Virus record (IMG/VR): IMGVR_UViG_3300013112_000174
Coordinates: 1 to 35,476 of that record
Source: a virus
DNA: 35,476 bases
Reading direction: 5' to 3' (one strand)
The notes under the pieces were generated by a model. The model made no database searches and had not been told where the DNA came from. It saw only the letters and a program-made list of their open reading frames with translations. Positions 8,583 through 23,787 of the stretch are shown here, one piece after another (positions within the stretch are counted from its first letter, which is position 1; every line of letters starts with the position of its first letter). Position numbers and translations under genes: made by a program.

Positions 8583-8610
8583 AATGTTATGTTCCTGTTG
8601 TTATTGGTTA

Positions 8611-8629: not shown

Positions 8630-11600
8630 AATTATTTACAATGTAATTATTCTGAAGCATGATAATAGCTGCAGTTTGATCAATGTCCGTTTGATCTACA
8701 TGAGTAGCATAATCCGGATCATTATTTAATGAAGCTGCAATTTCTTGTAGCGTATTCATATCACCTGGTGCTGTACCAATAAGATCGGATATCAATCCAT
8801 CAACATATTGTTTTGTCACCGCGTGTAAGTCAGCTGTAGGATTTCCAGCAAGTGTTAGTGTATTACCAATAGTAATATCAGACTCAAGCTTAGAAGATGT
8901 AACGGCTAAGTTCTTAATGTCACTTGATTCAATTGAATCGGCAGGTAGCATTACTGCCCCTGTTACTTCAAGGTTATTTAATGCCACACCAGTTTTACCT
9001 GCCGTACCATGTTTAGTTTCAGTATATAATCTTGAAGAAGTATTTGTTTTTGATACTGTTTGACCACCGAGGTTAATAGTTGTACCTGATAGATATAGGT
9101 CTTTCCAACGCATTGTAGAAGAACCTAAGTCATATTGTTCATTAAGACTTGGTATTAAATCAGAAGCAACTGAACCTACATTTAGTGAATTAAATGTACC
9201 GGTATCTGATGTACCAACCTCTAAGTTAACTGTATGATTTGTACCATCGGAAGTGGCAATAGTTAATTCAGATGTACCTGTATCATAACTTACATTTGAT
9301 ACTGAAGCAACATCTACTTCACCCGCTGTAGTTAATCTACCTTGGTTATCAACTGTGAATGTAGGAACCTGAGTAGCAGATCCATATGAACCTGAAGTAA
9401 CTGTTGTATTGGCAAGGTTAATAGTCTTATTAGAAGATAAATCACCACCACCAGTTAACCCTGTACCAGCTGAAATTGTAGTAGTCTTATCTGCTTTACC
9501 TGCAAGGTTTGTAGTTACACTCGAAGCGAATGAAGCATCATCATTAATAGCCTCTGCTAATTCATTAAGGGTATCAAGGGCAGCAGGTGCACCATCTAAT
9601 AAATTAGTTACTTGAGAATCAACATAAGCTACAGTTGAAATAACACTTGTATCAACAGCAAAATTAGTTACATTATTTGCATCATCGTATGTTACACTGA
9701 TACCTGATTCTGTGTTACCAGAAACCATATCACCAACAACATCCTGAATTTCTTCAGTTGTAACACCTTGGTATGTAATATTACCACCAGTCTTACTTAA
9801 TGAACCAAACCCACCATTGTCAGTAACAGAAATTAAACCTTGAACTTCTGAATCAGTTCTTTCTGTAAATGAAATTACACCTGTTGTACTATTATATGAT
9901 AAATCAGAATCAACACTAATAGCATTTCTTGCTCTAGCATCAGTGTAATATAAGTTTGAACCTTCAGTTAAATCACCAGTATCTTTACTGGCAAGGTCTG
10001 TATCGAAGTCAGATGATTTATATGTTACAACAGATATAGTACCAGTACTAGCATCATATGCAATATCACCACCAGCAACTAATGCACCTCTTGTTCTTGC
10101 TTCTGTCCAGTATAAATTAGTACCTTCGGCTAAATTATTAGTTGTTTTAGTAGCAAAGTTTGCATCAACTCTGGCTTCAGTATAGTACTTATTAGTACCT
10201 TCAACCAAGTTAGTAGTACTAAATGGATCAAGGGTTACCGTAGTAGCAAAGTTGTTGCCATCTGCAGTGTCAATATCGAGTACACCGGTTGATGTATTAT
10301 AATCGAAGTCTGTAACACCCGCAACTGATACTTCCGAAGCAGAAGTAATTCTACCTTGGTCATCAACTGTTATAACTGGTACTTGAGATGCTGAACCATA
10401 AGAACCTGAATTAACAGCAGTATTAGCCAAGTTAATAGTAAGGGCACCTGATGTACCACCACCGGTTAATCCTGTGCCTGCAGTTACCGAAGTAATATCG
10501 GCAGGGTTACCAATTGTAATTGTATTTGTTGTAGTATCATAATCAACTGATATGTTACCATCACCATTAAATGTAATAGTATCATTCTCTCCAACTAATT
10601 CTGTGTTGGTTCCATCTGATACATTCCATCCATCGTATGGATTAACTGTTCCTGAACCGATTGCAGTAATATGACCTTGAGCATCAAGGGTAATATCTTG
10701 AATAAATGTATTACCTGAATTATCAACTGAAGCTTGACTTGATGTATCGGCATGTTCAATTGTAATAGTATTATTTGAAGTAGCATTAGCAGTGAATGTA
10801 CCAGATCCAATTAATCCATTTGTACCTTCTACTGTTAATGTAGCATCACCAACTGTAATACCTACTTCTGATGCAGCTGTTAATTGACCTTGATCATTAA
10901 CAGTAAATACTGGAATAGCAGTTGTTGAACCATAAGTTCCTGCTGTAACAGTAGTATCAGATAATGTAATTGTTCTATTAGCTGATAAATCACCACCACC
11001 TTCTAAACCAGTGCCAGGATTAATAGTAATTGCCTTATCTGCTTTAGTAGCTTGAGTAGTAAGAATAGTTGCAATATCAGCATCATTATCTGTGATTGCT
11101 GTTGCAATTTCATTTAAGGTATCTAATGCGGCTGGAGCAGAATCAACTAAATTATTAATAGCAGTTGATACATCAGCAGTAGTAGCAATAGCAACACCAC
11201 TTAATGTACCTGATACAAATTCAGGTGAATCTAAAGAACCAATGCCAAGATCAACAGTATGTGTTGAACCATCACTTGTTGCAATCTCTAGCTCACCAGA
11301 AGTTGATGTGTATGTAACACCTGATACACCAGCCACCGCAGTAGTAGTTGCACCTGTAATTCTACCTTTACCATCAACAGTAATAACCGGTACTTCAGAA
11401 GCAGAGCCGTATGAAGCCGCAGTAACTCCAGTATTAGGTAATGATATATTACCTGCAGAATATGTTACATCAGCAGGAGTAGATGTAATAGCAGCTTTTG
11501 CCCTTGCATCTGTATAGTATAAATTAGAACCTTCTGCTAAATCATCAGTATCTTTTGTTGATAAATCATTATCAAAATCTGCACTCTTATATGTAACAAC

Positions 11601-12317
11601 AGATATTACACCAGTTGTAGAGTTATATGATACATCATCAACACCAGTTAATGATGCTCTAGCTCTGGCATTAGTATAGTATAAGTTACTACCTTCTGAT
11701 AATTGACCAGTGTTATATGGATCAAGAGTAATATTTGTAGCAAAGTTAGCACCATCAGCTGTGTCAATATCAATTGCACCTGTTGATGTATTAAAATCAA
11801 AATCAGTTACACCCGCTACATTTACTGTACTTGCCGAAGTAATTCTACCTTTAGCATCTACGGCTAATACAGGAACCTCTGAAGCAGAACCATAATTACC
11901 TGAAGTAACCCCAGAAGCAGCAAGGGAAACATTTAATGTAGTGTTACCTAAATCATTAATTGTAGCATTACCAAGAACATCACCAGTAATAGCAATATTT
12001 GGATCATCAACATTAAAGTTTAATTTTCGTGTGCCGGTGTCAAATGTAACTGTAATACCATCTTCGGTATTACCAGCAATCATTGCTCCAACAATATTTT
12101 CAACTACATTTACAGTAGGATTAAAATCTGAAGGCTTATTAACAATATGATCCCAATCACCTAATATATAAGTTAGATTAGACCAAGTAGATGTACCATC
12201 ACCAATTTTAAATTTATTGGTGTCAAGGTTAATACCTATTTCACCTTGAGATAGGACTGGATCACTGTTATTCCAGTTGGCCGTTACATCTCTTCTAAAT
12301 TGAATTTTACTTGCCAT
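8625..12317 (-). CDS. Long tail fibre with repeated beta modules (1230 aa)
   Basis: A 1230-residue fibre. Residues 1-50 (KIQFRRDVTANW ... LSQGEIGINLDT ... FKIGDGTSTWSNL) match the short N-terminal 'LxQGExxxN...kxkiGdG' domain common at the start of phage fibre proteins, which likely docks the fibre. The rest is a mosaic of modules: NIVGAMIAGNTEDGITV, YGSASEVPVxxVDxxGRITxA (many copies), SEGSNLYYTxARA, APAALDTLNE (three copies, the last near the C-terminus) and KxITINPGTGLxGGGDLSxNRTI. The C-terminus has a TADLHAVTKQYVDGL segment of the kind that ends many fibre shafts. GGAGGAG lies 7 nt before the ATG. The stop of the small upstream gene overlaps this start by one base (TAATG), so the two are coupled. 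Confidence 0.85.
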   Translation of the reverse strand: MASKIQFRRDVTANWNNSDPVLSQGEIGINLDTNKFKIGDGTSTWSNLTYILGDWDHIVNKPSDFNPTVNVVENIVGAMIAGNTEDGITVTFDTGTRKLNFNVDDPNIAITGDVLGNATINDLGNTTLNVSLAASGVTSGNYGSASEVPVLAVDAKGRITSASTVNVAGVTDFDFNTSTGAIDIDTADGANFATNITLDPYNTGQLSEGSNLYYTNARARASLTGVDDVSYNSTTGVISVVTYKSADFDNDLSTKDTDDLAEGSNLYYTDARAKAAITSTPADVTYSAGNISLPNTGVTAASYGSASEVPVITVDGKGRITGATTTAVAGVSGVTYTSTSGELEIATSDGSTHTVDLGIGSLDSPEFVSGTLSGVAIATTADVSTAINNLVDSAPAALDTLNEIATAITDNDADIATILTTQATKADKAITINPGTGLEGGGDLSANRTITLSDTTVTAGTYGSTTAIPVFTVNDQGQLTAASEVGITVGDATLTVEGTNGLIGSGTFTANATSNNTITIEHADTSSQASVDNSGNTFIQDITLDAQGHITAIGSGTVNPYDGWNVSDGTNTELVGENDTITFNGDGNISVDYDTTTNTITIGNPADITSVTAGTGLTGGGTSGALTINLANTAVNSGSYGSASQVPVITVDDQGRITSASEVSVAGVTDFDYNTSTGVLDIDTADGNNFATTVTLDPFSTTNLVEGTNKYYTEARVDANFATKTTNNLAEGTNLYWTEARTRGALVAGGDIAYDASTGTISVVTYKSSDFDTDLASKDTGDLTEGSNLYYTDARARNAISVDSDLSYNSTTGVISFTERTDSEVQGLISVTDNGGFGSLSKTGGNITYQGVTTEEIQDVVGDMVSGNTESGISVTYDDANNVTNFAVDTSVISTVAYVDSQVTNLLDGAPAALDTLNELAEAINDDASFASSVTTNLAGKADKTTTISAGTGLTGGGDLSSNKTINLANTTVTSGSYGSATQVPTFTVDNQGRLTTAGEVDVASVSNVSYDTGTSELTIATSDGTNHTVNLEVGTSDTGTFNSLNVGSVASDLIPSLNEQYDLGSSTMRWKDLYLSGTTINLGGQTVSKTNTSSRLYTETKHGTAGKTGVALNNLEVTGAVMLPADSIESSDIKNLAVTSSKLESDITIGNTLTLAGNPTADLHAVTKQYVDGLISDLIGTAPGDMNTLQEIAASLNNDPDYATHVDQTDIDQTAAIIMLQNNYIVNNL

Positions 12318-12640
12318 TAAGCAACTCCTCCATCGAATATATTATCACCACCACCAAATACTGAAGCGGCCATACCACCATCTAGATTTGAAAATGTGTC
12401 TATCTCTTGCCAAATAGCAGCAGTACCATTTGTCATTAAAAATTTATTATCGTTATTTGCCATAGGTGGTAATACCGAGGCAGCTGATGCTGTTACTTCA
12501 AATACTGTTCCTGAGGAATTCTTTGAGTATAATTTTTGGTCGGCTGTATTTAAGGCTAGCTCACCTTGTTGTAATTGTGATGCGTCAGGAACCTTATTCG
12601 GTTGAGCACTCTGCTTAATTTTAAATACTGTATTAGCCAT
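12317..12640 (-). CDS. Small fibre-type protein with shared N-terminal domain
   Basis: A 107-residue protein whose first 50 residues (VFKIKQSAQPNKVP ... LQQGELALNTADQKLYSKNSSG) are a version of the N-terminal domain of the neighbouring 1230-aa fibre and the 760-aa protein. The C-terminal half is short and ends NIFDGGVA, close to the DGGTF and IGGSF ends of two other structural genes here. It lacks any shaft, so it may be a collar, connector or cap using the same docking site. A late-promoter box lies 44 nt upstream of the ATG, and the gene is coupled by TAATG to the fibre. The exact role is not known. Confidence 0.7.
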   Translation of the reverse strand: MANTVFKIKQSAQPNKVPDASQLQQGELALNTADQKLYSKNSSGTVFEVTASAASVLPPMANNDNKFLMTNGTAAIWQEIDTFSNLDGGMAASVFGGGDNIFDGGVA

Positions 12641-12682: not shown

Positions 12683-13291
12683 TTATTTATATAATTCTCC
12701 ATTTAACATTTGGATAATTGCATCTTCTTTATACCAATTGGTTCCTGGATTGTACCATGAATTAGCATCAATACCAAATCCTTTAGAATATATTAATCCT
12801 ACAGGCCAATATTGAGAAGTGAACCCCTCATGCCAAATGAAATGATCTATTCCGGGATACTTTAACATATAGTACTCTGGGTCCTCCATGAACTTATCCC
12901 AAATCGCGATATTTTCTAGGCCATTCCATACCATTACAGACGAATTAATATTATGATCTTTATTATCGAGAAAACCATCAAATAATTCACGTAGTGGTTT
13001 CCAATAACATTTAACCATAGTAAAAGAATCTCTGTCATACAACGGTGTTAAGTCTTTTTGAATGATAACATCAAGGTCAAGATACAATAGTTTACCTAAG
13101 TTAAGTTTAAATAGAGATAGCTTATTCCATACTCCATCTAATCCTGGGTCAGGTTCTATTATTTTAATATTAGAGTTAAGACCAATTGGATCATCAGTTA
13201 AACAATAGAAGTTGTTATATATACTACTATATAATTTATTAACATCTTTAGAATTATATTTGGTACCTATTTTTACTGTTATAACATTCAT
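12683..13291 (-). CDS. DxD glycosyltransferase-like protein
   Basis: A 202-residue protein with the layout of GT-A nucleotide-sugar transferases. The N-terminal part (VITVKIGTKYNSKDVNKLYSSI ... FYCLTDDP) is followed by KLLYLDLDVII, whose D72-x-D74 would bind the metal and sugar nucleotide. Later come NSSVMVWNG near residue 116 and WPVGLIYSKGFG near the C-terminus. It is clearly related to the divergent plus-strand gene at 13372, which has the same blocks in order. It has no membrane segment. A sigma70-type promoter lies upstream at 13336-13364, giving a leader of roughly 38 nt. Donor and acceptor are unknown; the fibre genes directly downstream make virion proteins plausible acceptors. Confidence 0.75.
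   Translation of the reverse strand: MNVITVKIGTKYNSKDVNKLYSSIYNNFYCLTDDPIGLNSNIKIIEPDPGLDGVWNKLSLFKLNLGKLLYLDLDVIIQKDLTPLYDRDSFTMVKCYWKPLRELFDGFLDNKDHNINSSVMVWNGLENIAIWDKFMEDPEYYMLKYPGIDHFIWHEGFTSQYWPVGLIYSKGFGIDANSWYNPGTNWYKEDAIIQMLNGELYK
12684..12691 (-). promoter_or_regulatory. T4-type late promoter box
   Basis: Exact TATAAATA on the minus strand, overlapping the stop codon of the glycosyltransferase gene. It would give a leader of about 38 nt for the gene starting at 12640 and then the 1230-aa fibre. A 12-bp perfect palindrome, AAGTATATACTT (12661-12672), falls in that leader. Confidence 0.7.
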
Positions 13292-13335
13292 ATTAAACTA
13301 TTTATGTATACCCATAACCTTTAGTCACATAGTAT

Positions 13336-13364
13336 ATTATATCACATTTTGACAGTCTTGTAAA
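13336..13364 (-). promoter_or_regulatory. Sigma70-type promoter with extended -10
   Basis: The minus strand reads TTTACA, a 17-nt spacer, then TATAAT preceded by TGA (extended -10, TGnTATAAT). Boxes are 13364-13359 and 13341-13336. It points at the glycosyltransferase gene starting at 13291. This is close to the host housekeeping consensus and unlike the TATAAATA boxes elsewhere, so it could act early in infection. Confidence 0.65.
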
Positions 13365-13371
13365 CCCTTAT

Positions 13372-14121
13372 ATGAAAATAAAAATTGAAGCAATGTGTTT
13401 CCTTTGGGGAACCAAATATCCTAAACATTATGTTAATAGACTTAAAAACTCTCTTAAGATTCACCTACCTGAGATAAATGGTTTTCATTGTTTTACAGAT
13501 ATGCCTGATGATCCTGACTTTGATGATGATATTATTACACATAACTTGGCTGATTTTCCTAAGTTAGATGGTATTGATGATACATGGCCTTTATTTACTA
13601 AAGAGAAATTCCTGCCTATGGATAAAGATTTTCTACCAGGCACACGGAAGATCATATTTGACATTGACGCATTGATACATGGTTCTTTATCTGATTATGT
13701 ATGTAACAATGATTTTCCTAAGGTAACGTTAATTAAAAATTCTTGGGTTAATAGAGAAGAAATGAAAGCTCATTATTCTAATATAACAACTCCTTATAAT
13801 TCATCTTTTGTTATATGGGATGATGACGCAGGAAATTGGTTATTAGAAAACACTATTAAAGAATGGGATAAATTATCATTTAGTTATAAGTCATTTGATA
13901 AGTGTTTATATAATCATTACCCATCTAATAAGTTCAACTTTCACCCTAAAGGTATTGTATATACATATAACTTTGGTGCAGATTTTCCCAATGATATGGA
14001 ACACTTTAAATACCGAGAAGATTATAAAATATGTTTATTTAATACAAGCCATGGATATGGTAAAGAGTTAGATGAGGCTGATGGATGGCCAAAAGAATTA
14101 TGGGAGAGTTACAATGATTGA
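13372..14121 (+). CDS. DxD glycosyltransferase-like protein, paralogue of 12683-13291
   Basis: This 249-residue protein is one of only two genes on the plus strand. It has FLWGTKYPKHYVNRLKNSL, then FHCFTDMPDDP, IIFDIDALIHG (D97-x-D99), NSSFVIWD and GIVYTYNFG, the same ordered blocks as the divergent gene on the other side of the promoter gap. A nucleotide-sugar transferase role is inferred from that pattern. Relatives often begin near 'MxxxWGxKYP', so the second ATG at 13393 could be the true start; neither ATG has a good Shine-Dalgarno. TTGACA at 13349-13354 is present, but its -10 position would overlap the first ATG. The stop overlaps the next gene's start by 8 nt. Confidence 0.7.
   Translation: MKIKIEAMCFLWGTKYPKHYVNRLKNSLKIHLPEINGFHCFTDMPDDPDFDDDIITHNLADFPKLDGIDDTWPLFTKEKFLPMDKDFLPGTRKIIFDIDALIHGSLSDYVCNNDFPKVTLIKNSWVNREEMKAHYSNITTPYNSSFVIWDDDAGNWLLENTIKEWDKLSFSYKSFDKCLYNHYPSNKFNFHPKGIVYTYNFGADFPNDMEHFKYREDYKICLFNTSHGYGKELDEADGWPKELWESYND
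14102..14106 (+). promoter_or_regulatory. Ribosome binding site fixing the start at 14114
   Basis: GGGAG lies 7 nt before ATG at 14114, inside the end of the preceding gene. This favours 14114 over the upstream in-frame ATG at 14072. Confidence 0.7.
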
Positions 14122-14791
14122 GTGGGATAATAATGCTAGAAGGTTGACCGAATATGCTTTAAAATTAAAAGAAGATATGCCTTGGTTATATGAATCTTTC
14201 TTTTATCAATTTGATCCATATCATACTGAATTGATTAAGCAAATATATTATTATACAGTTGATTATATTGCAGAAGAAAAATACCAATCAAAACGTCACA
14301 CATTTAAAAATATATATGTAATTGGCTCTTGGTTTGGTCTACAAATATATGATATGTTTAATGATATGCGTAAAGATCAATTTAATGAGGATACTAAAGT
14401 TAACTTTACTTTTATTGATCGCAACAGGGATTATATTCAATCCATAGATATTATGAAAGAAATATGGGATGATAAAAATATATCAAGCATTAAAGCTGAT
14501 GTTGTATTTGAAGATATAGATTTTTCTGAAGCAGATTTAGTTATTATGCCTTATGCTGAAGAGATTATGCCTATTCAACATCTTAATTTAAATATTAAGT
14601 GTCCTATTGTTGCTGCATTTACCCATCATAGATATCAAAGAGCTAGAAATAGAAATTTTGCAGAACCTATTGAATCTATTACTGATATTCATATGCAAGA
14701 TCTTCAAAGAAGATACCTTAAGAAGATTGGTAATAATGATGATGATTGGGTTTATACTGATATTGTTACAATGGACTTAACTCTGGACTAA
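14114..14791 (+). CDS. Rossmann-type, possible SAM methyltransferase-like protein
   Basis: A 225-residue protein (start MIEWDNNARRLTEYAL). After a helical N-terminal 70 residues comes KNIYVIGSWFGLQIYDMF, a glycine-containing strand-loop-helix, then VNFTFIDRNRDYIQ, with an acidic residue after the second strand. This is the pattern of a SAM-binding fold. Then come VFEDIDFSEADLVIMPYAEEIM and CPIVAAFTHHRYQRARNRNF. The usual GxGxG is replaced by GSWFG, so catalytic activity is uncertain. It is coupled to the glycosyltransferase-like gene by an 8-nt overlap. Its 3' end overlaps the convergent radical SAM gene by 26 nt, leaving no room for a terminator. Confidence 0.55.
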   Translation: MIEWDNNARRLTEYALKLKEDMPWLYESFFYQFDPYHTELIKQIYYYTVDYIAEEKYQSKRHTFKNIYVIGSWFGLQIYDMFNDMRKDQFNEDTKVNFTFIDRNRDYIQSIDIMKEIWDDKNISSIKADVVFEDIDFSEADLVIMPYAEEIMPIQHLNLNIKCPIVAAFTHHRYQRARNRNFAEPIESITDIHMQDLQRRYLKKIGNNDDDWVYTDIVTMDLTLD

Positions 14792-15920
14792 TATACTTAT
14801 TCCATAAGGCCAAAGCATCATCATCGTTTTTAGCTTTAGGTGCACAAATGCCACATCCACAATGGGGGTTAGGGCAATTGATATAAGGTAACACACCTTT
14901 ATTCATATATGACTTTAATTGATCTAAAATCTTATGCTTTTCTGATAGTGTACCAATAGGACCCGTCTCTGAATCTAAATTTGTTCTACATGTTTGGTGA
15001 TGATACACTATATCGTTTTCTTGTTCGATATGTAAAAAATACCAATTGACTAAACATTTCCACCCCTTGAATTGTGTATTAGGTAAAAATCTAGTTTTAT
15101 CCCAAGTACCATTAGTTTTAGTATTAAGGTCTATATTACCACAACAACCTCTACCCATTTTTCTAAGTACAGTTTTCTTATTAGGTATATTTTCCAAAGC
15201 AATTGTATTTTTAGTTTTAGATACTAATGCATTAGTATTATTCCAAAATGATTGCATATAATCTCTTTGATCATTAGTATATTCATGCACTTTTCTTCGT
15301 TCAGGGTTTGCTTTATCCACAAATTTCTTATCGTCTAATCTTTCGCCAATAATGCGTGGAACAAATTTTATGTCATTAGGTTCTAATACATCTTTAATTA
15401 AATCCTGGCATTCTTTAAAATTATCATCACCTGAATGCATCATAACATTAACTCTCATAGCATCTGATTTTATTTCGTTTAATGCTAATATATTTTCAAT
15501 GACCTTTTTCTTTAATGATGGTTTACCTTCTGTGTGATATGAAATAGTAACAAAATTACATGTTTCATTTATTAGATTTAATTTTCTTTTATCCCATGTA
15601 CCATTTGTTGTTAATGATATTTTATATTTGGGATAATCAGATTTAATCCATGTTATTAAATTATAAAATGCTGGATTAACAGTTGGCTCACCTCCAGTGA
15701 AAGTGATACTTCCTACCCTAGGTGTTTTATGCCATTGGGAATATAGAGTATAATATTCATCAATAAAAACCATTGTTTCTTTAAGTTCTTCTAAAGATGA
15801 ATGAGGGCTAAAGTTATTATGCATACCTGAATGGCAATATGTACAATCAAAGTTACATCTTTTACCTAGGTCCCATACTAAAACTTGTTTATTTTGTCCT
15901 GAATCAATTGTATCGTACAT
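14766..15920 (-). CDS. Radical SAM enzyme with C-terminal cysteine-rich region
   Basis: This 384-residue protein carries the radical SAM signature Cys22-x3-Cys26-x2-Cys29 (CNFDCTYC), then TFTGGEPT at 73-80 for SAM binding and SLTTNGTWD near 102. The C-terminal third has further cysteines (259, 260, 289, 311, 349, 354, 356, 359; for example NPHCGCGICAP), suggesting one or two auxiliary Fe-S clusters, as in SPASM/Twitch enzymes that modify peptides, proteins or sugars. It would use 5'-deoxyadenosyl radical chemistry in the cytoplasm. It is the last gene of the run transcribed from 20803, and its start overlaps the unknown upstream gene by 17 nt. The substrate is unknown. Confidence 0.85.
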   Translation of the reverse strand: MYDTIDSGQNKQVLVWDLGKRCNFDCTYCHSGMHNNFSPHSSLEELKETMVFIDEYYTLYSQWHKTPRVGSITFTGGEPTVNPAFYNLITWIKSDYPKYKISLTTNGTWDKRKLNLINETCNFVTISYHTEGKPSLKKKVIENILALNEIKSDAMRVNVMMHSGDDNFKECQDLIKDVLEPNDIKFVPRIIGERLDDKKFVDKANPERRKVHEYTNDQRDYMQSFWNNTNALVSKTKNTIALENIPNKKTVLRKMGRGCCGNIDLNTKTNGTWDKTRFLPNTQFKGWKCLVNWYFLHIEQENDIVYHHQTCRTNLDSETGPIGTLSEKHKILDQLKSYMNKGVLPYINCPNPHCGCGICAPKAKNDDDALALWNKYISPELSPL

Positions 15921-16746
15921 TATATATTTCTTTTATTCCATAAATTTCTTTTTCTATTATATCTATATCACCTATTATCTTTCCAACTTTACCAAAACCT
16001 ATAGTATTCATAGGATCACTAAAATCTATTCCAATATTATTAAAGAATTTTATGTTAGTTTTTAACCATTTATTAAATCTTAAGTCAAAATCATATTTGA
16101 ATGGATTATCAAAGTATATTTTAAAATCGGCGCTAATATCTTTTTGAGGTATTATATTCTTATTACCTACGTGTTTATTATTTAATTCATTATCTATAAA
16201 TATGTCTATAATTTTTTTACCCTTATGACAATATTTTAATACTACATCACCAGGTTCTATTTTAGTATTAAATAAAGATGCTTCCTCTACTGTCATAGTT
16301 CTACTGGGTCTATTATCTAATGATACTACAATTTTACCACCTTTATTTCTTTCCATATGCTCATATCTATGGATAAGAATGTTAAATTCTCTAATTGCTA
16401 ATTTTACTAATTCTGGTGCATCCTGATAAAATTTATATTGGCTTTTATCTGGACGCATAAAATCTTCAAAGTATTTATGTAGATAATTTAGATTATCTTT
16501 ATATATTATAGTATTATGTTTATAATCATTTACAACATCAATACAGTTTAATAATTGTTCTTTAATTAAACTTAAATTCCATTTATTATTTAATGAATAT
16601 ATTCTTTCAGGCTCAGATACTGATACACCAGAATCTATTATATCTTTTAACATTTTAGACCAAGATTTTCCTAATATAGTATCATCTGATTCTATTGCTA
16701 ATGTATATATCATATCATCTTTAATAAGATCTAAATAGAATATCAT
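15904..16746 (-). CDS. Unknown protein, translationally coupled to the radical SAM gene
   Basis: I recognise no family in these 280 residues. It begins MIFYLDLIKDDMIYTLAIESDD. The first half is helical (VNDYKHNTIIYKDNLNYLHKYF, LAIREFNILIHRYEHME) and the second half mixed alpha/beta (GKIVVSLDNRPSRTMTVEEA, PGDVVLKYCHKGKKIIDIFI, NPFKYDFDLRFNKWL). No signal peptide, membrane segment or cysteine cluster is seen. It starts 1 nt after the methyltransferase stop and ends inside the start of the radical SAM gene. This suggests it is a partner, substrate carrier or recognition subunit for that enzyme, an inference from position only. Confidence 0.65.
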   Translation of the reverse strand: MIFYLDLIKDDMIYTLAIESDDTILGKSWSKMLKDIIDSGVSVSEPERIYSLNNKWNLSLIKEQLLNCIDVVNDYKHNTIIYKDNLNYLHKYFEDFMRPDKSQYKFYQDAPELVKLAIREFNILIHRYEHMERNKGGKIVVSLDNRPSRTMTVEEASLFNTKIEPGDVVLKYCHKGKKIIDIFIDNELNNKHVGNKNIIPQKDISADFKIYFDNPFKYDFDLRFNKWLKTNIKFFNNIGIDFSDPMNTIGFGKVGKIIGDIDIIEKEIYGIKEIYNVRYN

Positions 16747-16747
16747 A

Positions 16748-17275
16748 TTACATTTTAACTAAATGTGCATAGTATCTTAATGCTCCATGCATATTAGGAT
16801 CTTCCTCCCAAGCAACTATAGAATAACCATAAGCTAAAGCAAAATTACTAATTTTTTCTTTAGACCATGGATAGAAATTTATTTCAGATGATTTACCTTC
16901 AGCCCAATGATGATCCAGTCCAGGATTAAGTCTCATAAACAATTGGCCGTCTGTATCTAATAGCTTATCAATACATCTCATCTGGTGTTCAATTATTTTA
17001 TCATCACCAAAGTTAATAGATCCTAAGGCCATAATAACATCATATTTTATATTATTACCAAACTCCTCAATTGATACTTTCATATCAGCTTTATCATTAT
17101 ATGGGTCAATACCAATTAAGTTATTAATTTTGCCTTTATAATAATTAAAACCACAACCAACGTCGAGAACCCTATTAGGTTTTAAACTATTGATCTCATC
17201 AATTAGATAATTCCCAGTCCACTTATATTCAGTGTCGTGAGTCCATACTTTACCAAAGTATTCGCTTATATCCAT
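16748..17275 (-). CDS. Class I SAM-dependent methyltransferase
   Basis: A 175-residue compact methyltransferase. Motif I is NRVLDVGCGFNYYKG at about residues 34-48, the acidic post-strand residue is in NLIGIDPYND, and YDVIMALGSINFGDD corresponds to motif IV. LFMRLNPGLDHHW and AYGYSIVAWEED follow in the usual order, and the region after residue 115 is a short cap. It lacks a target-recognition domain. It starts 1 nt after the sulfotransferase stop, with GAGG inside the upstream gene's end, and is followed 1 nt later by the unknown gene. Sugar, lipid or peptide methylation are all possible; a fibre-decoration pathway is inferred from its neighbours. Confidence 0.75.
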   Translation of the reverse strand: MDISEYFGKVWTHDTEYKWTGNYLIDEINSLKPNRVLDVGCGFNYYKGKINNLIGIDPYNDKADMKVSIEEFGNNIKYDVIMALGSINFGDDKIIEHQMRCIDKLLDTDGQLFMRLNPGLDHHWAEGKSSEINFYPWSKEKISNFALAYGYSIVAWEEDPNMHGALRYYAHLVKM

Positions 17276-17276
17276 A

Positions 17277-18002
17277 CTACCATTCCTCTAAATGTGGATA
17301 AAATGCAACTGATGTATCATATACCGGAACCCCTTTGGTTATATCTGGTGGCATATGATTGATTGCTCTATAATGTTTTTCGATTCGTGTGTCAATATCA
17401 AATGGAATAGCCAATTCATTCTTTAAGAAACCTGATGTCATGTTATATAGGGTTAGCTCTTCCCTATCAACAAATTGCCTGATATTCCAATCTTGCAATT
17501 TAGCCTTATGTCTCATACCCTCTTCATCTTTGTACCATTGATAATTAGGGTAGGTAATATCAAAGCCCCCTCCATTAAACCACCATTTCATTGAGGCTTC
17601 ATATTCTCTTACAACAAATATAAATTTAGAATCTGGGAAATTTTCAATCCACCAATCAAGTGATAAAGCAATAGAATGCGATTTAACTAAGTAATTAGTA
17701 TCATCATGACTTCTAAATGCTGATTCAATATCATGTAATACTGCTTCTTTGGTAAGAGGTATTTCTCTTTCCGCTGGGTATTCCCATTTCATACCAAATT
17801 CCATACCTGACCCAAAGAATGCCCCTTGATGATTAATTAAACCTGGCCATGAGGTTCCCTGTTTAATATAGTATTCCCTATCTTTATTTCTATCAGATAC
17901 GTTAGCATTTAAAATAGGGCTAAATTGTAATAGGGTTGCCACTCTGGACCATGATGATCCTGGTATACCTACAAAAAATATAATTTTATCTTCTTCAATC
18001 AT
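17277..18002 (-). CDS. PAPS-dependent sulfotransferase-like protein
   Basis: This 241-residue protein has the ordered marks of the sulfotransferase fold. IIFFVGIPGSSWSRVATLL at residues 7-25 is the 5'-phosphosulfate loop. YLVKSHS near 104-110 carries the likely catalytic His109. KFIFVVREYEASMKWW at 126-141 is the 3'-phosphate-binding strand with Arg132 and Ser137. It would transfer sulfate from PAPS to a hydroxyl or amine. The loop reads GIPGSSW rather than the commoner PRSGTTW. The gene overlaps the upstream 2OG oxygenase by 8 nt. No PAPS-making genes are in the window, so host PAPS is presumed. The acceptor (sugar, Tyr or other) is unknown. Confidence 0.7.
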   Translation of the reverse strand: MIEEDKIIFFVGIPGSSWSRVATLLQFSPILNANVSDRNKDREYYIKQGTSWPGLINHQGAFFGSGMEFGMKWEYPAEREIPLTKEAVLHDIESAFRSHDDTNYLVKSHSIALSLDWWIENFPDSKFIFVVREYEASMKWWFNGGGFDITYPNYQWYKDEEGMRHKAKLQDWNIRQFVDREELTLYNMTSGFLKNELAIPFDIDTRIEKHYRAINHMPPDITKGVPVYDTSVAFYPHLEEW

Positions 18003-18618
18003 TTTCTATGCTATCAATAATAATATCTTTCATGTTTTCATCTTGAATATAAAAGGCAATAGACCATCTTGGTTCGTTAGTCTTTGCACAATGAAATGTA
18101 GAACCCTCGCCTTTACCATACCAGCCAGTCTTACAGCTCCACCCAGGTCTATCGTTAATGGTTACTATTTCGTGTGTTTCTGGATCTCTAAAACGATAGA
18201 ATGAATCACCAGTTTTACTCCAATTAAATAATAGTGTATACCCAGGGGCATCATGATTATCATGCCACCCAATATATCCATCTTCAGGATAGTAAGCACA
18301 CAAGGCGTTTTGTTGCACTCCTAATTCCCTAGAGAAGTTAAAGGCTACATCATCAGCAAAGGCTTTCCAGTGGGGCGGTATTTTTGATGAAGGCAATACT
18401 GAGATATCAACTGCTTTAATAGCCTCCGGAGGGCCTTCGTGCCTTCTACCTTTATCTAAGATAACTTGAAGATATTCATCAGATACACCATACTCAGCTG
18501 ATATATCTGGATCTCTATCAGCTATTTTTAGTTCATCAATATCCATTGATTGTATGGTATCAATGAAACCATTTAATCTATCTAAAACTTCTTGGTTCTT
18601 AATTAATATTTCTTTCAT
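17995..18618 (-). CDS. 2-oxoglutarate/Fe(II) oxygenase (hydroxylase-like)
   Basis: A 207-residue double-stranded beta-helix oxygenase. YYPEDGYIGWHDNHDAPGYT (109-128) carries the first iron ligand, probably His119. TFHCAKTNEPRWSIAFYI (174-191) carries the distal His176 and the RxS pair Arg184/Ser186 that bind 2-oxoglutarate. The middle part (SFYRFRDPETHEIVTINDRPGW) matches hydroxylases found in marine phages. The canonical HxD is not obvious: H119-x-N121 is read, with Asp at 120 and 123. Overlaps of 20 nt with the upstream GT-like gene and 8 nt with the sulfotransferase suggest coupled expression. Protein or sugar hydroxylation is inferred. Confidence 0.75.
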   Translation of the reverse strand: MKEILIKNQEVLDRLNGFIDTIQSMDIDELKIADRDPDISAEYGVSDEYLQVILDKGRRHEGPPEAIKAVDISVLPSSKIPPHWKAFADDVAFNFSRELGVQQNALCAYYPEDGYIGWHDNHDAPGYTLLFNWSKTGDSFYRFRDPETHEIVTINDRPGWSCKTGWYGKGEGSTFHCAKTNEPRWSIAFYIQDENMKDIIIDSIEND

Positions 18619-19330
18619 GGTTTAATTCCACCTCGGGTATTGTATAATGCCATATTACAACATCATCTTTTATTTCGTTGTCATTATATATATAAACGAA
18701 ATTAAACCGAGCATCGTCAGGGTATATTTCAAATGAGATATCTCTATTATTTGTTAACCACCATAAGGTGAATTGATCCCAAGGAGATAATCTTTCCTTT
18801 GGTGATACCCCTTCAGGCCACCACTTATTTGTTATTTGCTCATGGTATTTTGTATACCATTCAGTCATAAAATTAAGAGTTCTTTCATTTGATTGGTAAC
18901 CAAATACCCCGCCGTGTAATACCATTTCACCCCCAACAAACTTAGCTATTTTACCAGCGTATGATCTAATATTTGTAAAGGCTAAATCAGATTCGAAGTT
19001 AAACATTTTACTTACATCTTCATGGCATACTGTTGTATCACAATCAAGATAAACTGTTTTATCAAATGGAGTTTTATCTAAGGCCCATAGCTTAGCTCGA
19101 TGATGCTTTGGTACATCATGTACTAAGTATAGATCTTTACAACGATCATCATCCTTTGTCCACTCATCATGAGCGAATAAGGCTATGTTTGCTTCTGGAT
19201 AGTAGTCTAATAAAGAATCTATTAAACGATGTGCTGCTTCATAGTAACAATACTTTAATGAAGCAACAATTATGAAACCATTACTTTTTCTTTTTAGTTG
19301 CTTTTGCTTTCTTTTTAGGGGTAGGTTCAC
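18599..19330 (-). CDS. Glycosyltransferase-like protein (DxD, GT8-type layout)
   Basis: A 243-residue protein. GFIIVASLKYCYYEAAHRLI begins the nucleotide-binding fold, and KTVYLDCDTTV gives D96-x-D98 for metal and sugar-nucleotide binding. GGEMVLHGGVFGYQSN near 133 and SPWDQFTLWWLT near 180 match the acceptor-side pattern of GT8-like enzymes. The start is awkward. The only standard codon upstream of the conserved core is GTG at 19330, giving a Lys-rich leader (KRKQKQLKRK) read through the 3' end of the upstream gene in the +1 frame. Relatives would be expected to start close to NGFIIVAS, so a non-standard start or a frameshift fusion should be considered. The function call is good; the N-terminus is uncertain. 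Confidence 0.7.
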   Translation of the reverse strand: MNLPLKRKQKQLKRKSNGFIIVASLKYCYYEAAHRLIDSLLDYYPEANIALFAHDEWTKDDDRCKDLYLVHDVPKHHRAKLWALDKTPFDKTVYLDCDTTVCHEDVSKMFNFESDLAFTNIRSYAGKIAKFVGGEMVLHGGVFGYQSNERTLNFMTEWYTKYHEQITNKWWPEGVSPKERLSPWDQFTLWWLTNNRDISFEIYPDDARFNFVYIYNDNEIKDDVVIWHYTIPEVELNHERNIN

Positions 19331-19745
19331 TGGCTTTCATAATTAATAATGTAGAATAAGCAATAACTTCAGTTAAGGTTTTTGCCTTACGGATCTTAGC
19401 TTTAGTCGCTCGATCTTTAGATTCTTTTACTTCTTCAATTTGGAATGCATCAATCTTAGCTTGAAAGATATCTTCATTCTTTTTCTTTTCTCTTTCTGCT
19501 TTAGTTTGGATAATAATATCCTCTTCTTTAGAATCTCTTTCTTCTAATCTTTTTTCAGTTGCTGCATCAATATCTTTTTTAGAATGTTCTTTAAAGATTT
19601 GATCCCAATCAGGGTTATTATCTTCACCCTTATCAGTATTCATAACACTTGCAGTTAAAGATGAACCATCTTCATATTCAAATGTACAAACAACTTGTGA
19701 TTTACCTTCATCACCCCAATATGGGTCTACTATTTTCTTATCCAT
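19281..19745 (-). CDS. Lys/Glu-rich helical protein, unknown function
   Basis: This 154-residue protein is not recognised. Residues 1-40 (VDPYWGDEGKSQVVCTFEYEDGSS) look like a small beta domain. Residues 60-120 are highly charged helix (EKRLEERDSKEEDIIIQTKAEREKKKN), likely coiled coil. A short hydrophobic patch (EVIAYSTLLIM) precedes the C-terminal tail PKKKAKATKKKK. AAGGA lies 7 nt before the ATG, 18 nt after the Tyr-rich repeat gene. The basic tail is coded by an A-rich run that overlaps the beginning of the next frame. It may be a structural or adaptor protein, but nothing in the sequence fixes that. Confidence 0.6.
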   Translation of the reverse strand: MDKKIVDPYWGDEGKSQVVCTFEYEDGSSLTASVMNTDKGEDNNPDWDQIFKEHSKKDIDAATEKRLEERDSKEEDIIIQTKAEREKKKNEDIFQAKIDAFQIEEVKESKDRATKAKIRKAKTLTEVIAYSTLLIMKASEPTPKKKAKATKKKK

Positions 19746-19763
19746 AATATTTCCTTTATATAA

Positions 19764-20762
19764 TTAAGCTATTCTCAACCAAAGTTTTAAAGTAGCAATT
19801 GTTTCCTTTGATGCCATGATAGTAGCACCTGTGTATGTTCCTGTGTATGTTCCTGCATAAGTACCAGAGTAATAACCAGTATAAGTACCAGAGTAATAAC
19901 CAGTATAGGTACCGGCATTTCTACCTGAGTAGTATCTTATATAGTTACCGGTGTATGCTCCGGTATAGTTACCGGTGTATGCTCCGGTATAGTTACCAGT
20001 ATAGTTACCAGAGTAATTCTGATTAGCCCTTTGATGTCTATCATCAGTAAAACCAGAGCCAGCTTGAATCCAAGTGCCGCCAGCGGGGGCAGACGTTGCT
20101 AGCTGATATTTGCCAATACCTGAAGAAATAATTTCTGATCTAAAGTAGTCAGTCAAATCATTAATTTCTGTATTAGTCAATTCCTTTAGAGAAGATGAAT
20201 CCCATTTCATAGGACGAGTACCAGGGGTTGTAATACCATCTGTTCTTCTCCATAGAGTAGAAGTATTATTACCTGATACTGTTTTATTAGTAATAGTACC
20301 TACGCTTGTCCAAGTACCACCACTAGGGGCAGATGGTTGTAGTTTATATGTACCTGGACCGAATGAACCAATCTTAGATTTTACTCTATTAATAATATTT
20401 GATACAATATCAGAGTCTGACATCTCCTGTAAACCTTCAAATGAACCTGATCCTTTAATCTCCATAGGTCTAGCACTTGTTGAAGGGGATACTGCACTTA
20501 AGTTTTGTCTAAAGACATAATTTTCAGTATGAATGGTAGTGTTAGCAGGATGAGTACCTACATTTTGGTCTCTTCGAGTATCAGAAAATGTACCAATGTT
20601 TGTCCAACTAGATTGTGAATTAATAGCTAAGTGGCCAGTACCAACATTATCAGTAAATGAATCTAGTAATAAGTCAGCAAATGAGTCAATTTCAGAGTCT
20701 GACATTTCCTGTAAACCAGCAAATGTGCTTCCATCATATTTAATTTTTAGTGGTCTAGCCAT
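19764..20762 (-). CDS. Virion-type protein with three 90-residue repeats and a Tyr-rich tetrapeptide tract
   Basis: A 332-residue protein built from three related units starting ARPLKIKYDGSTFAGLQEMS (2), ARPMEIKGSGSFEGLQEMS (97) and TRPMKWDSSSLKELTN (182). Each is followed by a helix and a TWTxxGTxxDxR-type strand. Residues 249-312 are sixteen tetrapeptides, mostly xYTG or xYSG. The last 20 residues (ATIMASKETIATLKLWLRIA) form a helix. There is no signal peptide. A late promoter lies 33 nt upstream, and this is the first gene of the run containing the sulfotransferase, oxygenase and glycosyltransferase-like genes. It is probably a fibre or baseplate decoration; I know no named family. Confidence 0.75.
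   Translation of the reverse strand: MARPLKIKYDGSTFAGLQEMSDSEIDSFADLLLDSFTDNVGTGHLAINSQSSWTNIGTFSDTRRDQNVGTHPANTTIHTENYVFRQNLSAVSPSTSARPMEIKGSGSFEGLQEMSDSDIVSNIINRVKSKIGSFGPGTYKLQPSAPSGGTWTSVGTITNKTVSGNNTSTLWRRTDGITTPGTRPMKWDSSSLKELTNTEINDLTDYFRSEIISSGIGKYQLATSAPAGGTWIQAGSGFTDDRHQRANQNYSGNYTGNYTGAYTGNYTGAYTGNYIRYYSGRNAGTYTGYYSGTYTGYYSGTYAGTYTGTYTGATIMASKETIATLKLWLRIA
19827..20018 (-). repeat. Tyr-rich tetrapeptide repeat, 16 units of xY(T/S)G
   Basis: Codes for residues 249-312. Units run NYSG, NYTG, NYTG, AYTG, NYTG, AYTG, NYIR, YYSG, RNAG, TYTG, YYSG, TYTG, YYSG, TYAG, TYTG, TYTG. The DNA is a 12-base direct repeat with drift, including two near-identical 24-base copies around 19945-19995. 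Confidence 0.9.
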
Positions 20763-20795
20763 AATTTCTTCTTTATAATATGTTATATTTAAGTA

Positions 20796-20803
20796 TATTT
20801 ATA
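20796..20803 (-). promoter_or_regulatory. T4-type late promoter box inside an inverted repeat
   Basis: Exact TATAAATA on the minus strand, giving a leader of about 28 nt for the gene starting at 20762. It is embedded in a 16-nt inverted repeat, AAGTATA-TT-TATACTT (20791-20806). It lies just past the terminator of the previous transcription unit, so it should start the run down to 14766. Confidence 0.75.
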
Positions 20804-20846
20804 CTTACTTTTCATTAAATGTTATAGTTATATATAACGCTTAAGG

Positions 20847-20874
20847 AAAAGCCCTCCTGGAGGAGGACCTTTTT
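20847..20874 (-). terminator. Rho-independent terminator, probably bidirectional
   Basis: The hairpin has a CCTCC/GGAGG stem with a 4-nt loop, extended beyond a small internal loop by AAAAG/CTTTT. Both strands therefore carry a U-run after the GC stem. It follows the stop of the 760-aa gene by 9 nt and separates it from the next late promoter. Confidence 0.75.
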
Positions 20875-20882
20875 AGTACTAT

Positions 20883-23165
20883 TTAGAAAGTACCACCATC
20901 AATAACATTTGATGCAACTGGAACACCAGCTGAATTAAACTTGATAATGTAATCTTCTGGGTTAGTAGCCGGAGGTGTAATGAAACTAATCGCATCACCT
21001 GCAGCATTAGTAATCATAATTGAATCACCTGAGAATGAACTCATTCCAGTACCACCAGATGTTACAGGAACATCATTATCAAATGTTACATCACCATTAA
21101 CAACTAAGTCAGTAGTTACCTGAGCATTACCAGTAATGATTGTATCACCACCAGCAGGAGTTAATGTTAAGTCACCAGTTGTTGTTGAGATTAAGTTATC
21201 TGTAACAACTAGGTTACCATTAGCACCAGCTTCAAGTGTACCTCTTAGGTATAGGTTAGAGAATTGTGCATCACCCCAAGGAGCTACATAATTTTCATCC
21301 GTTGTGTCAACTTCAGGTTTGAATGTGAAACGTTTTGTTTCCATATCCATACCAAAGAAGCCTGTTTGAACAGCAACTCCATCACCATAGTCTAAAGAAA
21401 TACCACGATCATTAGCATCACCACCAGCAACTGAACCATCACCTACTTTAACAACAGGATCATTTAATGTAATAACAGTTGATTCAACCGTAGTAGTTGT
21501 ACCATTAACTGTTAAGTTACCACCAATGATTGTATTACCATCAACATTTAAGTTATCAGTAATATCTACATTACCACTCGTAACATCAATACCTTGTGTA
21601 AAGTTAGCATCAGCATCTACTTGTAATTGAGTAGTAACATTTGCTGTACCAATATTAGCCGTTGTAGTATTGGCTGTAGTAGTATTAGCAATCGGAGTAG
21701 TAATCTGAGCAGTTACATATAAACCATTATCATTAATGTATAGTTCTTCATTACCCGCTGTGTAGAATCTTAATGTATCATCATTAGGACTTTCTTCAGC
21801 AGTAATATATGTATCTTGGTTGATATCAACTACACCACCGAGGCCAGTCCAATTACCTGATACAGAACCTTCAAATCTATTATCTGAAGTATTGTATCGA
21901 ATAGCACCATCACCAACTGTAATCGCTGAAGGTCTTGAAGCTTCAGAACCAGATGCAACAACAAATGCTGTATTAGTATCAATTGTTACTAAGCCATCTC
22001 CATTTGGTGTTAGTGTTAAACCACCGTCAGAGTTGATAGCAGAAATAGTATTGCCATCATGACGCATATTATCAACATCTAATGTACCAGTTACTTGTAA
22101 TGTTGTACCATTGAATGTTAAATTAGCAGAGTCTTCAATCTCTCCACCAGGGCCAGCAATAAGAACTCTATTATCTGTTAAGTCTACAACTTTTAATGTA
22201 GCAATAGTTGCAGAAGTATTTACATCTAAAGAACCCGTAATATGTTGATCACCATTTAAATATAGCGTTGAACCATCATAAGTTAAATCAGCTGAATCTT
22301 CTAATTCACCACCAGCACCAACAAATACCATTCTATCATTTGTTAAGTCCTGAACATTTAATGAATCAACAGTTAGTTGAGCATCAATGTTTGTAGCACC
22401 ACCAATTTGTACTGTACCAGAAGTAGTAGTATTACCAGTTACTGTTAGTAGAGTACCGTCGAATGTAAAGTTACCTGAGTCTTCAATCTCTCCACCAGCA
22501 CCAACAATAACAACACGGTTATTAGTTAGGTCTTCAACGTTAAGTGAAGCTAAAGTAGATTGGCCATCAACGTGTAATGTACCATTAACTAAAGCATTAC
22601 CAGTAGTTGTTTGGTTACCATTAAGTGTTAATAGTGTACCATCGAATGTTAAATCAGCACTATCTTCTACTTCACCTGAAACACCAGCTAATAAAACTCT
22701 GTTGTTTGTAAGATCCGTTACATTTAATGAAGCTAATGTAGTTTGTCCAGTAAATGCTGATGTACCTGATACTGTAAAGTTACCAACAATATTAGTTGTA
22801 GCTTGTACGTTAAATTCACCAGTACCGTTAGGGTTAACTGTTAAGTCACCATTGGTATTAGTTGTTGTAATATCATTACCGTCAATAGTAATGTTATCAA
22901 TATTGATTAAATCAATTTTATTATCAGAACCTGTAATGATTGCATGATTTGCAATTGTCTTACCAAAGTCTACTGATGAAGCTTTTAATTGATCTGTATA
23001 AAATTTACCACCGATTGCAATTGGATCAATAACACCACCGTTATCCCAACCAATCCATAGTTTGTCGCTTATATAAGAATAAGCCTGTTCGCCTTGAGCT
23101 AATGCATTACTTGCAGGTTGTGCATTGGCCAGGGAGAACTTAGTTACAATTACTGTACCTGACAT
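20883..23165 (-). CDS. Fibre or virion decoration protein with tandem beta modules (760 aa)
   Basis: The N-terminus (VTKFSLANAQPASNALAQGEQ ... DKLWIGWDNG) is the docking-type domain shared with the 107-aa and 1230-aa genes. Residues 144-365 hold four copies of a SLNVxDLTNNRVxxxGxxGExEDSADLTFDGTLL module. Later come ATVGDGAIRYNTSDNRFEG-like and NLTVNGTTTTVESTVITLNDPVV segments, typical of phage fibre shafts. The C-terminal SGGTGMSSFSGDSIMITNAAG precedes the end VIDGGTF. AAGGAGAG is 7-8 nt upstream of the ATG, a very strong site. No late box lies directly upstream, so it is probably read through from 23785. A terminator follows. Its position on the virion is unknown. Confidence 0.8.
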   Translation of the reverse strand: MSGTVIVTKFSLANAQPASNALAQGEQAYSYISDKLWIGWDNGGVIDPIAIGGKFYTDQLKASSVDFGKTIANHAIITGSDNKIDLINIDNITIDGNDITTTNTNGDLTVNPNGTGEFNVQATTNIVGNFTVSGTSAFTGQTTLASLNVTDLTNNRVLLAGVSGEVEDSADLTFDGTLLTLNGNQTTTGNALVNGTLHVDGQSTLASLNVEDLTNNRVVIVGAGGEIEDSGNFTFDGTLLTVTGNTTTSGTVQIGGATNIDAQLTVDSLNVQDLTNDRMVFVGAGGELEDSADLTYDGSTLYLNGDQHITGSLDVNTSATIATLKVVDLTDNRVLIAGPGGEIEDSANLTFNGTTLQVTGTLDVDNMRHDGNTISAINSDGGLTLTPNGDGLVTIDTNTAFVVASGSEASRPSAITVGDGAIRYNTSDNRFEGSVSGNWTGLGGVVDINQDTYITAEESPNDDTLRFYTAGNEELYINDNGLYVTAQITTPIANTTTANTTTANIGTANVTTQLQVDADANFTQGIDVTSGNVDITDNLNVDGNTIIGGNLTVNGTTTTVESTVITLNDPVVKVGDGSVAGGDANDRGISLDYGDGVAVQTGFFGMDMETKRFTFKPEVDTTDENYVAPWGDAQFSNLYLRGTLEAGANGNLVVTDNLISTTTGDLTLTPAGGDTIITGNAQVTTDLVVNGDVTFDNDVPVTSGGTGMSSFSGDSIMITNAAGDAISFITPPATNPEDYIIKFNSAGVPVASNVIDGGTF
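22071..22736 (-). repeat. Four tandem 55-61-residue beta modules in the 760-aa protein
   Basis: The conserved core xxSLNVxDLTNNRV...GEIEDSADLTFDG recurs with its central Asp at residues 151, 212, 273 and 328. The first three spacings are even, and the last unit is shorter. Confidence 0.85.
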
Positions 23166-23221
23166 ATTTGTCTCTCCTTAAATTAAATTAAATTTACCAA
23201 GCGTGTTGCAATGCATGTGCA

Positions 23222-23772: not shown

Positions 23773-23777
23773 ATAGT

Positions 23778-23785: not shown

Positions 23786-23787
23786 TA

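Follow-up and report, generated by a model that had tools for sequence, protein, structure and literature searches.

Conserved linkage of a tyrosine-repeat tail-region protein to a glycosyltransferase and an oxygenase suggests virion decoration in T4-like phages

Why would a T4-like phage carry eight enzyme-type genes and two unknowns as a coupled late-type operon between its tail-fibre genes? This question is raised by positions 12683–20762 of a viral DNA stretch of 35,476 nt, here called the window. The layout given in the original prediction proved sound, with every ORF present at its coordinates and the minus-strand chain from 20762 to 14766 coupled through gaps of +18, +1, and +1 nt and overlaps of 50, 20, 8, and 17 nt (Table 1). 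The late promoter said to start the chain was found as a T4-late-type TATAAATA on the minus strand ahead of the Y start codon, and the terminator said to precede it as a hairpin with a T-run past the upstream fibre gene. Neither signal exceeded chance in shuffled sequence (TATAAATA across the whole window: 11 seen and 9.06 expected; terminator-like sites in the region: 3 seen and 3.8 expected), so both are read from their position only. No neck gene was identified in 1–35476, the window ending before any gp14, and no close DNA relative of the window occurs among 50,697 phage records. A PDB sequence search with 1152–2213 returned no credible match.

Table 1. Features of the modification cassette and its surroundings, in window coordinates
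Feature	Position	Strand	Evidence or remark
Downstream fibre block, 107-aa and 1230-aa proteins (context)	8625–12640	-	phrog_1197 tail protein; syntenic in L003
GT_A, GT8-like glycosyltransferase	12683–13291	-	PF01501 9.6e-5 (sub-threshold GT8); phrog_1962 glycosyltransferase 1.8e-13
GT_B, GT8-like glycosyltransferase	13372–14121	+	Profile weakly matches GT8/LgtC
X, Rossmann-type, class I methyltransferase-like	14114–14791	+	ORF listed from 14072
Radical SAM enzyme, Cys-rich C-terminus, rare cargo	14766–15920	-	PF04055 3.7e-12, firm; CxxxCxxC 'CNFDCTYC'
U280, rare cargo, travels with radical SAM gene	15904–16746	-	Paired with radical SAM gene in L003 and L012
MT175, class I SAM methyltransferase, rare cargo	16748–17275	-	Pfam Methyltransf_23 E 0.0034–0.004, weak
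Sulfotransferase (PAPS type), rare cargo	17277–18002	-	Pfam Sulfotransfer_3 E 0.014, below cut-off
2OG, 2-oxoglutarate/Fe(II) oxygenase fold, core	17995–18618	-	AlphaFold2 pLDDT 92.4; HMM match weak, 0.066
GT_C, GT8-type (GT-A fold) glycosyltransferase, core	18599–19330	-	AlphaFold2 pLDDT 91.2
U (U154), small conserved partner	19281–19745	-	50-nt overlap with GT_C; in 60/61 GT_C loci
Y, 332-aa virion-type protein, proposed substrate	19764–20762	-	Family recovered by YTG pattern scan
T4-late-type promoter motif TATAAATA	20796–20803	-	34 nt upstream of Y; window count not above chance
Terminator-like hairpin	about 20852–20866	-	Between fibre 20883–23165 and Y
Upstream fibre-type protein (context)	20883–23165	-	PHROG virion structural matches
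VrlC-like large protein, upstream border of island (context)	25417–30384	-	phrog_358 E 0; homologous to Mosig 'VrlC'

Comparison with relatives divides the cassette into a fixed core and rare cargo. The core consists of Y (a tyrosine-tetrapeptide-repeat protein), U (154 aa), GT_C (a GT8-type glycosyltransferase), and 2OG (a 2OG-Fe(II) oxygenase). A DNA-pattern scan for YTG repeats, with no enzyme in the query and counting loci with at least 2.5 kb downstream, found U, GT_C, and 2OG downstream of all 68 genuine Y genes; two apparent Y genes lacking the core (L058 and L059) were rejected as a Thr/Pro-rich repeat read in antisense frames. Conversely, when loci were collected by GT_C, whose sequences form 14 clusters at 60% identity, Y was upstream in 61/61, and U and 2OG were each present in 60/61. 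The core genes are also tightly packed, the reading frames of U and GT_C overlapping in 120 of 125 cases and those of GT_C and 2OG in 91 of 119. Core order stays while the remainder of the island turns over, and among the GT_C loci surveyed no neighbours other than VrlC (a VrlC-like gene lies upstream in 58/61) and GT8 genes come near the constancy of the core. Scattering of the genes in relatives, independent of fibre genes, had been named in advance as the result that would speak against the original prediction; for the core, such scattering was looked for and not found (68/68 and 61/61). This linkage shows a functional association, and it does not itself identify the substrate molecule.

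The treatment of all eight enzymes as one set held in part. GT_C, 2OG, X, and GT8 genes recur widely, whereas the sulfotransferase, MT175, U280, and the radical SAM gene are rare, lineage-specific cargo. X and extra GT8 genes usually lie downstream of the core, and because GT8-type genes occur in 42/42 and X in 36/42 of the GT_C loci with enough sequence, both can be said to travel with it. Taken alone, neither GT_B nor X matches a family; GT_B joins a family of 278 ORFs in 104 loci, and the X family, with weak PDB matches to methyltransferase and spermidine synthase, is present in 95 of 125 surveyed loci. The likely start of X is 14114, based on homology to L003.

At least 485 relatives of GT_C occur in uncultivated T4-like viral contigs, linkage having been checked in the smaller locus sets above. 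The module is thus carried by numerous T4-like phages that are uncultured and, for the most part, probably aquatic. The only named phage record with GT_C is C48C1, which carries the core and is missing the downstream genes after 2OG. PHROGs holds no credible family for the Y-U-GT_C-2OG module. A cellular origin was considered and rejected, as the single match among GTDB contigs was to a 6.5-kb contig in a Bifidobacterium MAG that is probably misbinned and bears the whole phage module.

High-confidence structural models confirmed the identity of both core enzymes. The GT_C model best matches glycogenin (Foldseek 3.7e-9; VIA Z 17.1), identity to it and other GT8 enzymes being 14–18%, and the ranking is almost tied between glycogenin, Skp1 galactosyltransferase (6mw5), LgtC, and LARGE1. 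Several of these tied GT8-like matches act on glycans. Glycogenin is a protein-tyrosine glucosyltransferase; GT_C shares with it and other GT8 enzymes the fold, the DxD motif (D96xD98 in 86/86 sequences), and the C-terminal metal-binding His (H228 in 82/86), but differs from glycogenin in that it is encoded apart from, and next to, the protein proposed as its substrate. GT_C has no Pfam match, the Glyco_transf_8 cut-off thus not being reached, and for this reason it is termed GT8-like and not filed as a GT8 member. The 2OG model has the double-stranded beta-helix fold with the distal His and the 2OG-binding Arg, and is closest to peptidyl hydroxylases of the PHD2 and bacterial P4H type, with a Dictyostelium prolyl hydroxylase (6t8m) among the matches. 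Its residues H119-x-N121, H176, and R184 are invariant, and the canonical HxD/E metal motif is absent from the family, being replaced by HxN in 83/83 distinct sequences (assigned by motif spacing, not by coordinates). The enzyme therefore shares the fold without being filed as a canonical member, and its hydroxylase activity is uncertain because the invariant Asn stands where a metal-binding Asp or Glu is expected.

From its location and repeat architecture, we infer that Y is part of the virion. Three N-terminal repeats of an 'RPLKI..GLQEMSDSEI' domain are followed by ~16 tyrosine tetrapeptides (coding DNA ~19827–20018). The repeats hold no Lys (0%), no Cys, and 0.75% Pro, so that acceptors within them would be Tyr, Thr/Ser, or Asn, and collagen-like hydroxylation of Pro or Lys is disfavoured. 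The tyrosine hydroxyl is not required everywhere, given that Phe occupies repeat position 1 in 21% of tetrads. U is likely a fibre chaperone or adaptor, and a distant homologue lies beside fibre genes in Mosig, where GT_C and 2OG are missing. A second apparent tyrosine-repeat association, in AG-345-D19 (L006), was discarded; the repeats of the 1615-aa fibre there are of the GDVTG type instead of YTG, and the BLAST hit lay in low-complexity sequence.

Because Y is followed almost without exception by one helper gene, one sugar-adding enzyme, and one oxygenase, these observations suggest that such phages chemically decorate their virions by an as yet undescribed route. Decoration of the virion is the better-supported reading of the cassette, as a glycosyltransferase/oxygenase pair is locked to a tyrosine-repeat virion-type protein (68 and 61 loci) in the late tail region. 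Sited in the host-recognition (tail-fibre) island of a T4-like phage that is probably aquatic, the locus probably, though by no means certainly, serves to modify the virion. Late in infection, Y would be made together with U, which is probably its chaperone or adaptor. 2OG would oxidise side chains of Y, most simply by hydroxylation, and GT_C would draw on a nucleotide sugar to attach the first sugar to the repeat region; X and the extra GT8 enzymes would then extend or cap the glycan, and strain-specific cargo (here the sulfotransferase, the methyltransferase, and the radical SAM enzyme with U280) would diversify it. A surface decorated in this way might change how receptors are bound, or it might protect the fibre. 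The almost unvarying association with a single virion-type protein favours a phage protein as the target, and we infer both the substrate and the chemistry of the module. More tentatively, Y may represent an undescribed, widespread class of virion glycoprotein, a Tyr-tetrapeptide tail-region protein. An atypical HxN 2OG oxygenase would oxidise it, a glycogenin-like transferase would glycosylate it, and in this lineage it would also be sulfated and methylated, so that the tip in contact with the host would bear a coat of sugars that diversifies genetically.

The foremost alternative, which we consider unlikely, is that late in infection the enzymes act on the host surface, modifying its lipopolysaccharide or a different glycan, as a block to superinfection or an aid to release, and that they sit among fibre genes because the island collects host-recognition functions. 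LgtC and other LPS glycosyltransferases have the same fold as GT_C, some cargo, such as a cytidylyltransferase, suits sugar-precursor synthesis, and in published work (PMC7029224) the GT8 genes of the pelagimyophage host recognition cluster are read in this way. Host-glycan modification would not, however, need a lock to one fibre gene, yet GT_C is always found with Y (61/61) and Y with GT_C (68/68); it also leaves a peptidyl-hydroxylase-like 2OG in the fixed pair unexplained, and a role in virion assembly agrees better with the late-type promoter and the position. Less probable still is a division of labour, with Y as the target of GT_C and 2OG, and with the GT8, X, sulfotransferase, methyltransferase, and radical SAM genes downstream making up a pathway of their own for a host glycan or a small molecule. 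Such a split would fit the frequent location of the downstream genes on the other strand, their strong variation, and their absence beyond 2OG in C48C1, but the presence of GT8-type genes and X at nearly all GT_C loci with enough sequence (42/42 and 36/42) speaks against it. It is very improbable that GT_C and 2OG have lost catalysis, or that they moonlight in assembling the repeat fibre, as the invariant HxN of 2OG (83/83) might hint, since the strict conservation of the active sites, in GT_C (DxD 86/86, His 82/86) and in 2OG (both His and Arg 83/83), argues for catalysis.

The novelty claimed for the set had to be narrowed, as this kind of island has already been published under the name 'host recognition cluster' for pelagimyophages and cyanomyophages; GT8 and radical SAM genes are among its contents, and the glycosyltransferases are read there as acting on host LPS (PMC7029224). 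The present locus shares its T4-like genome site after a VrlC-like gene in the tail-fibre region, its tail fibres, GT8, and radical SAM genes, and the variable glycosyltransferase content of a hypervariable island of T4-like marine phages. A term search of that paper found neither a tyrosine-repeat protein nor the fixed Y-U-GT_C-2OG order (PMC7029224). The islands of 2OG oxygenase and radical SAM genes in HTVC008M and Mosig likewise have modification enzymes at a homologous site, flanked by fibre genes and by neck genes, but no homologue of GT_C or of the core-type 2OG was found there. In the Dictyostelium Skp1 pathway, a prolyl-hydroxylase (a 2OG oxygenase) and then GT8-like enzymes act on one protein. 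The likeness to the module is one of concept, as Pro makes up only 0.75% of the Y repeats and 2OG here has HxN. Mycobacteriophages offer a precedent for phage-encoded glycosyltransferases that decorate their own structural proteins; that system belongs to other phages with Mycobacterium hosts, and its known sites are the C-termini of capsid and tail-tube proteins (Freeman et al. 2023, cited in PMC12619734).

Should the enzymes act on Y, glycosyltransferases of T4-like host-recognition islands that are currently taken to alter host LPS would be decorating the phage instead, which would change the interpretation of host range, phage–phage competition, and 'auxiliary metabolic genes' in these islands. 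The module would then also offer a compact system of two enzymes and one substrate, directly testable in E. coli.

The rare cargo is less readily assigned. The radical SAM gene falls far under all NCBIfam equivalog cut-offs, and its reading as a phage viperin (pVip) was rejected (45 bits against an NCBIfam cut-off of 180; the PADLOC match covers only residues 13–130). U280 has no Pfam, PHROG, or credible PDB match. The best matches of the sulfotransferase to PDB profiles, to TPST1, are not significant (E 0.28–0.38); in alignment it carries the 5'-PSB P-loop and 3'-PB motifs (GIPGSSWS and FVVREYEAS). Its homologues in AG-345-D19 adjoin fibre genes, and MT175 adjoins the sulfotransferase in L029 as well.

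The cassette among the fibre genes is real, and it is both larger and smaller than the original prediction had it: the tyrosine-repeat gene Y and its neighbours U, GT_C and 2OG form a conserved module in many contigs, whereas the sulfotransferase, radical SAM and MT175 genes are occasional extras. All ten named genes were found in the window, and the coupled run from Y to the radical SAM gene was borne out, with overlaps of 50, 20, 8 and 17 nt and gaps of 1–18 nt. The proposed terminator and late promoter before Y were matched by a hairpin and, 34 nt ahead of Y, by a TATAAATA motif, though neither is commoner than in shuffled sequence.

Coordinates of the cassette genes and of related features in the window and in other records
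Feature	Record	Position	Strand
GT_A, GT8-like	window	12683–13291	-
GT_B, GT8-like	window	13372–14121	+
X, methyltransferase-like	window	14114–14791	+
Radical SAM	window	14766–15920	-
U280	window	15904–16746	-
MT175, methyltransferase	window	16748–17275	-
Sulfotransferase	window	17277–18002	-
2OG, oxygenase	window	17995–18618	-
GT_C, GT8-type	window	18599–19330	-
U	window	19281–19745	-
Y	window	19764–20762	-
VrlC-like protein	window	25417–30384	-
Methyltransf_24 pair	window	604–2213	-
Y homologue	C48C1 (L027)	18512–28555	
Second 2OG homologue	C48C1 (L005, OQ984149.1)	15001–15675	
Radical SAM/SPASM tandem	L087	9680–14339	
Fibre and sulfotransferases	AG-345-D19 (L006, MH319725.1)	3352–10654	

Linkage within the module was observed from both directions, in sets that share some contigs. 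Scanning the viral collection for DNA that fits Y[TS]GxY[TS]GxY[TS]G, with no enzyme in the query, gave at least 120 stretches; among the matches listed, U, GT_C and 2OG occur in 68 of the 70 repeat-ORF loci that extend 2.5 kb or more downstream. Both exceptions were rejected, being antisense readings of a Thr/Pro repeat that belongs to an unrelated phage, so all 68 genuine Y loci listed contain the three genes. Conversely, in a GT_C profile search (best 80 of at least 485 relatives kept), loci with 3 kb or more of upstream sequence contained Y (61/61), U (60/61) and 2OG (60/61). The 155 GT_C sequences among the matches listed form 79, 51 and 14 clusters at 95%, 80% and 60% identity, thus the linkage does not stem from one clone. 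Reading frames overlap in 120 of 125 U–GT_C and 91 of 119 GT_C–2OG pairs listed.

Gene content around the module varies. A close relative (L003, 60–85% identity) retains all cassette genes in order, and the more distant L012, L013, L015 and L016 keep Y-U-GT_C-2OG, some with GT_A, the middle genes being lost or replaced where sequence is available. Among listed GT_C loci with enough sequence, VrlC lies upstream in 58/61, GT8-type genes like GT_A/GT_B downstream in 42/42 (mean 2.9 each), X in 36/42, the sulfotransferase in 2/42 and radical SAM in 3/42. Further island cargo includes FkbM and Methyltransf_24 methyltransferases, radical SAM/SPASM proteins (three related genes in tandem in L087), a cytidylyltransferase and additional 2OG enzymes. 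The sulfotransferase adjoins MT175 also in locus L029, and U280 is paired with radical SAM in L003 and L012. Marine single-cell virus AG-345-D19 is an independent case of fibre–sulfotransferase adjacency: after its VTG-repeat fibre come two sulfotransferase homologues and then a similar-looking third ORF. The entire phage module Y-U-GT_C-2OG-X-3xGT8 also occurs on a 6.5-kb contig (L229, CALPIE020000128.1) assigned to a Bifidobacterium breve MAG, probably through misbinning.

It seems rather likely that the cassette modifies the phage's own tyrosine-repeat protein, with the chemistry at every step being what we infer. Across 3,796 tetrads the repeat consensus is [Y79/F21]-[T41,S23,A14]-[G94]-[N21,T20,S16], where the search pattern allowed only Y/F at position 1 and G/R at position 3; Lys and Cys are at 0% and Pro at 0.75%. 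If the repeats are the substrate, this composition would point to Tyr, Thr/Ser or Asn as acceptors, not Pro or Lys. Phage C48C1 encodes a 3347-aa Y homologue (~319 Tyr/Phe tetrapeptides with small unrelated domains in between), then U, GT_C and 2OG. Judged by gene neighbourhood, U is probably a partner of the fibre and not of the enzymes, since a Mosig homologue adjoins fibre genes where neither GT_C nor a core-type 2OG was found.

The main rival, that the enzymes modify host LPS, appears unlikely, though it is the reading given, against coinfection, in PMC7029224, which describes the same island type with GT8 and radical SAM genes as the host recognition cluster of pelagimyophages. The cassette's position is occupied by 2OG genes in HTVC008M and by a long series of enzyme genes in Mosig. 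Mycobacteriophages are known to have glycosylated virions (work cited in PMC12619734). The Y-U-GT_C-2OG module was not found in the literature searched, mostly open-access journal papers, and Y, U, GT_C, 2OG and X sequences from relatives matched no credible PHROG family.

Taken singly, the radical SAM and GT_A sequences gave firm family evidence and those of the remaining enzymes weak evidence; relatives and structure models settle the predicted identities of GT_C and 2OG. The GT_C AlphaFold2 model (pLDDT 91.2) best matches glycogenin in the PDB (Foldseek E 3.7e-9; VIA Z 17.1, 185 residues, rmsd 3.0), other GT8/GT6 enzymes lying within ~2 Z; all 86 sequences have D96xD98, and 82 have H228. 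The 2OG model (pLDDT 92.4) best matches PHD2 and further peptidyl hydroxylases (Z 9.5–11.6), with non-peptide enzymes also among the matches. Its His and Arg are retained, and HxN invariantly replaces HxD/E (83/83, window and relatives); motif spacing would put the Asn in the metal-carboxylate place, which may mean either that the metal site lacks its usual carboxylate or that the chemistry differs. The replication region of C48C1 carries a second core-2OG homologue, beside DnaB-like helicase and NifU-like genes, so the role of this family may not be a single one. For the sulfotransferase profile, the nearest PDB match, TPST1, was not significant (E 0.28).

From matches at identical coordinates, the window is judged to equal bases 1–35,476 of IMG/VR contig IMGVR_UViG_3300009008_000058 (50,460 b). 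The window holds part of a T4-like myovirus tail module, running from gp25, gp6 and gp8-type genes through the 1655-aa VrlC-like protein to fibre-type genes; its gp6-like protein is nearest those of Melnitz, HTVC008M and Mosig (35–38% identity). Downstream of a collagen-like fibre lies a second modification-type pair, a 353-aa unknown overlapping a Methyltransf_24 gene, which match the N-terminal (3e-123) and C-terminal parts of phrog_1458, respectively, and are the two-gene counterpart of that fused phage protein.
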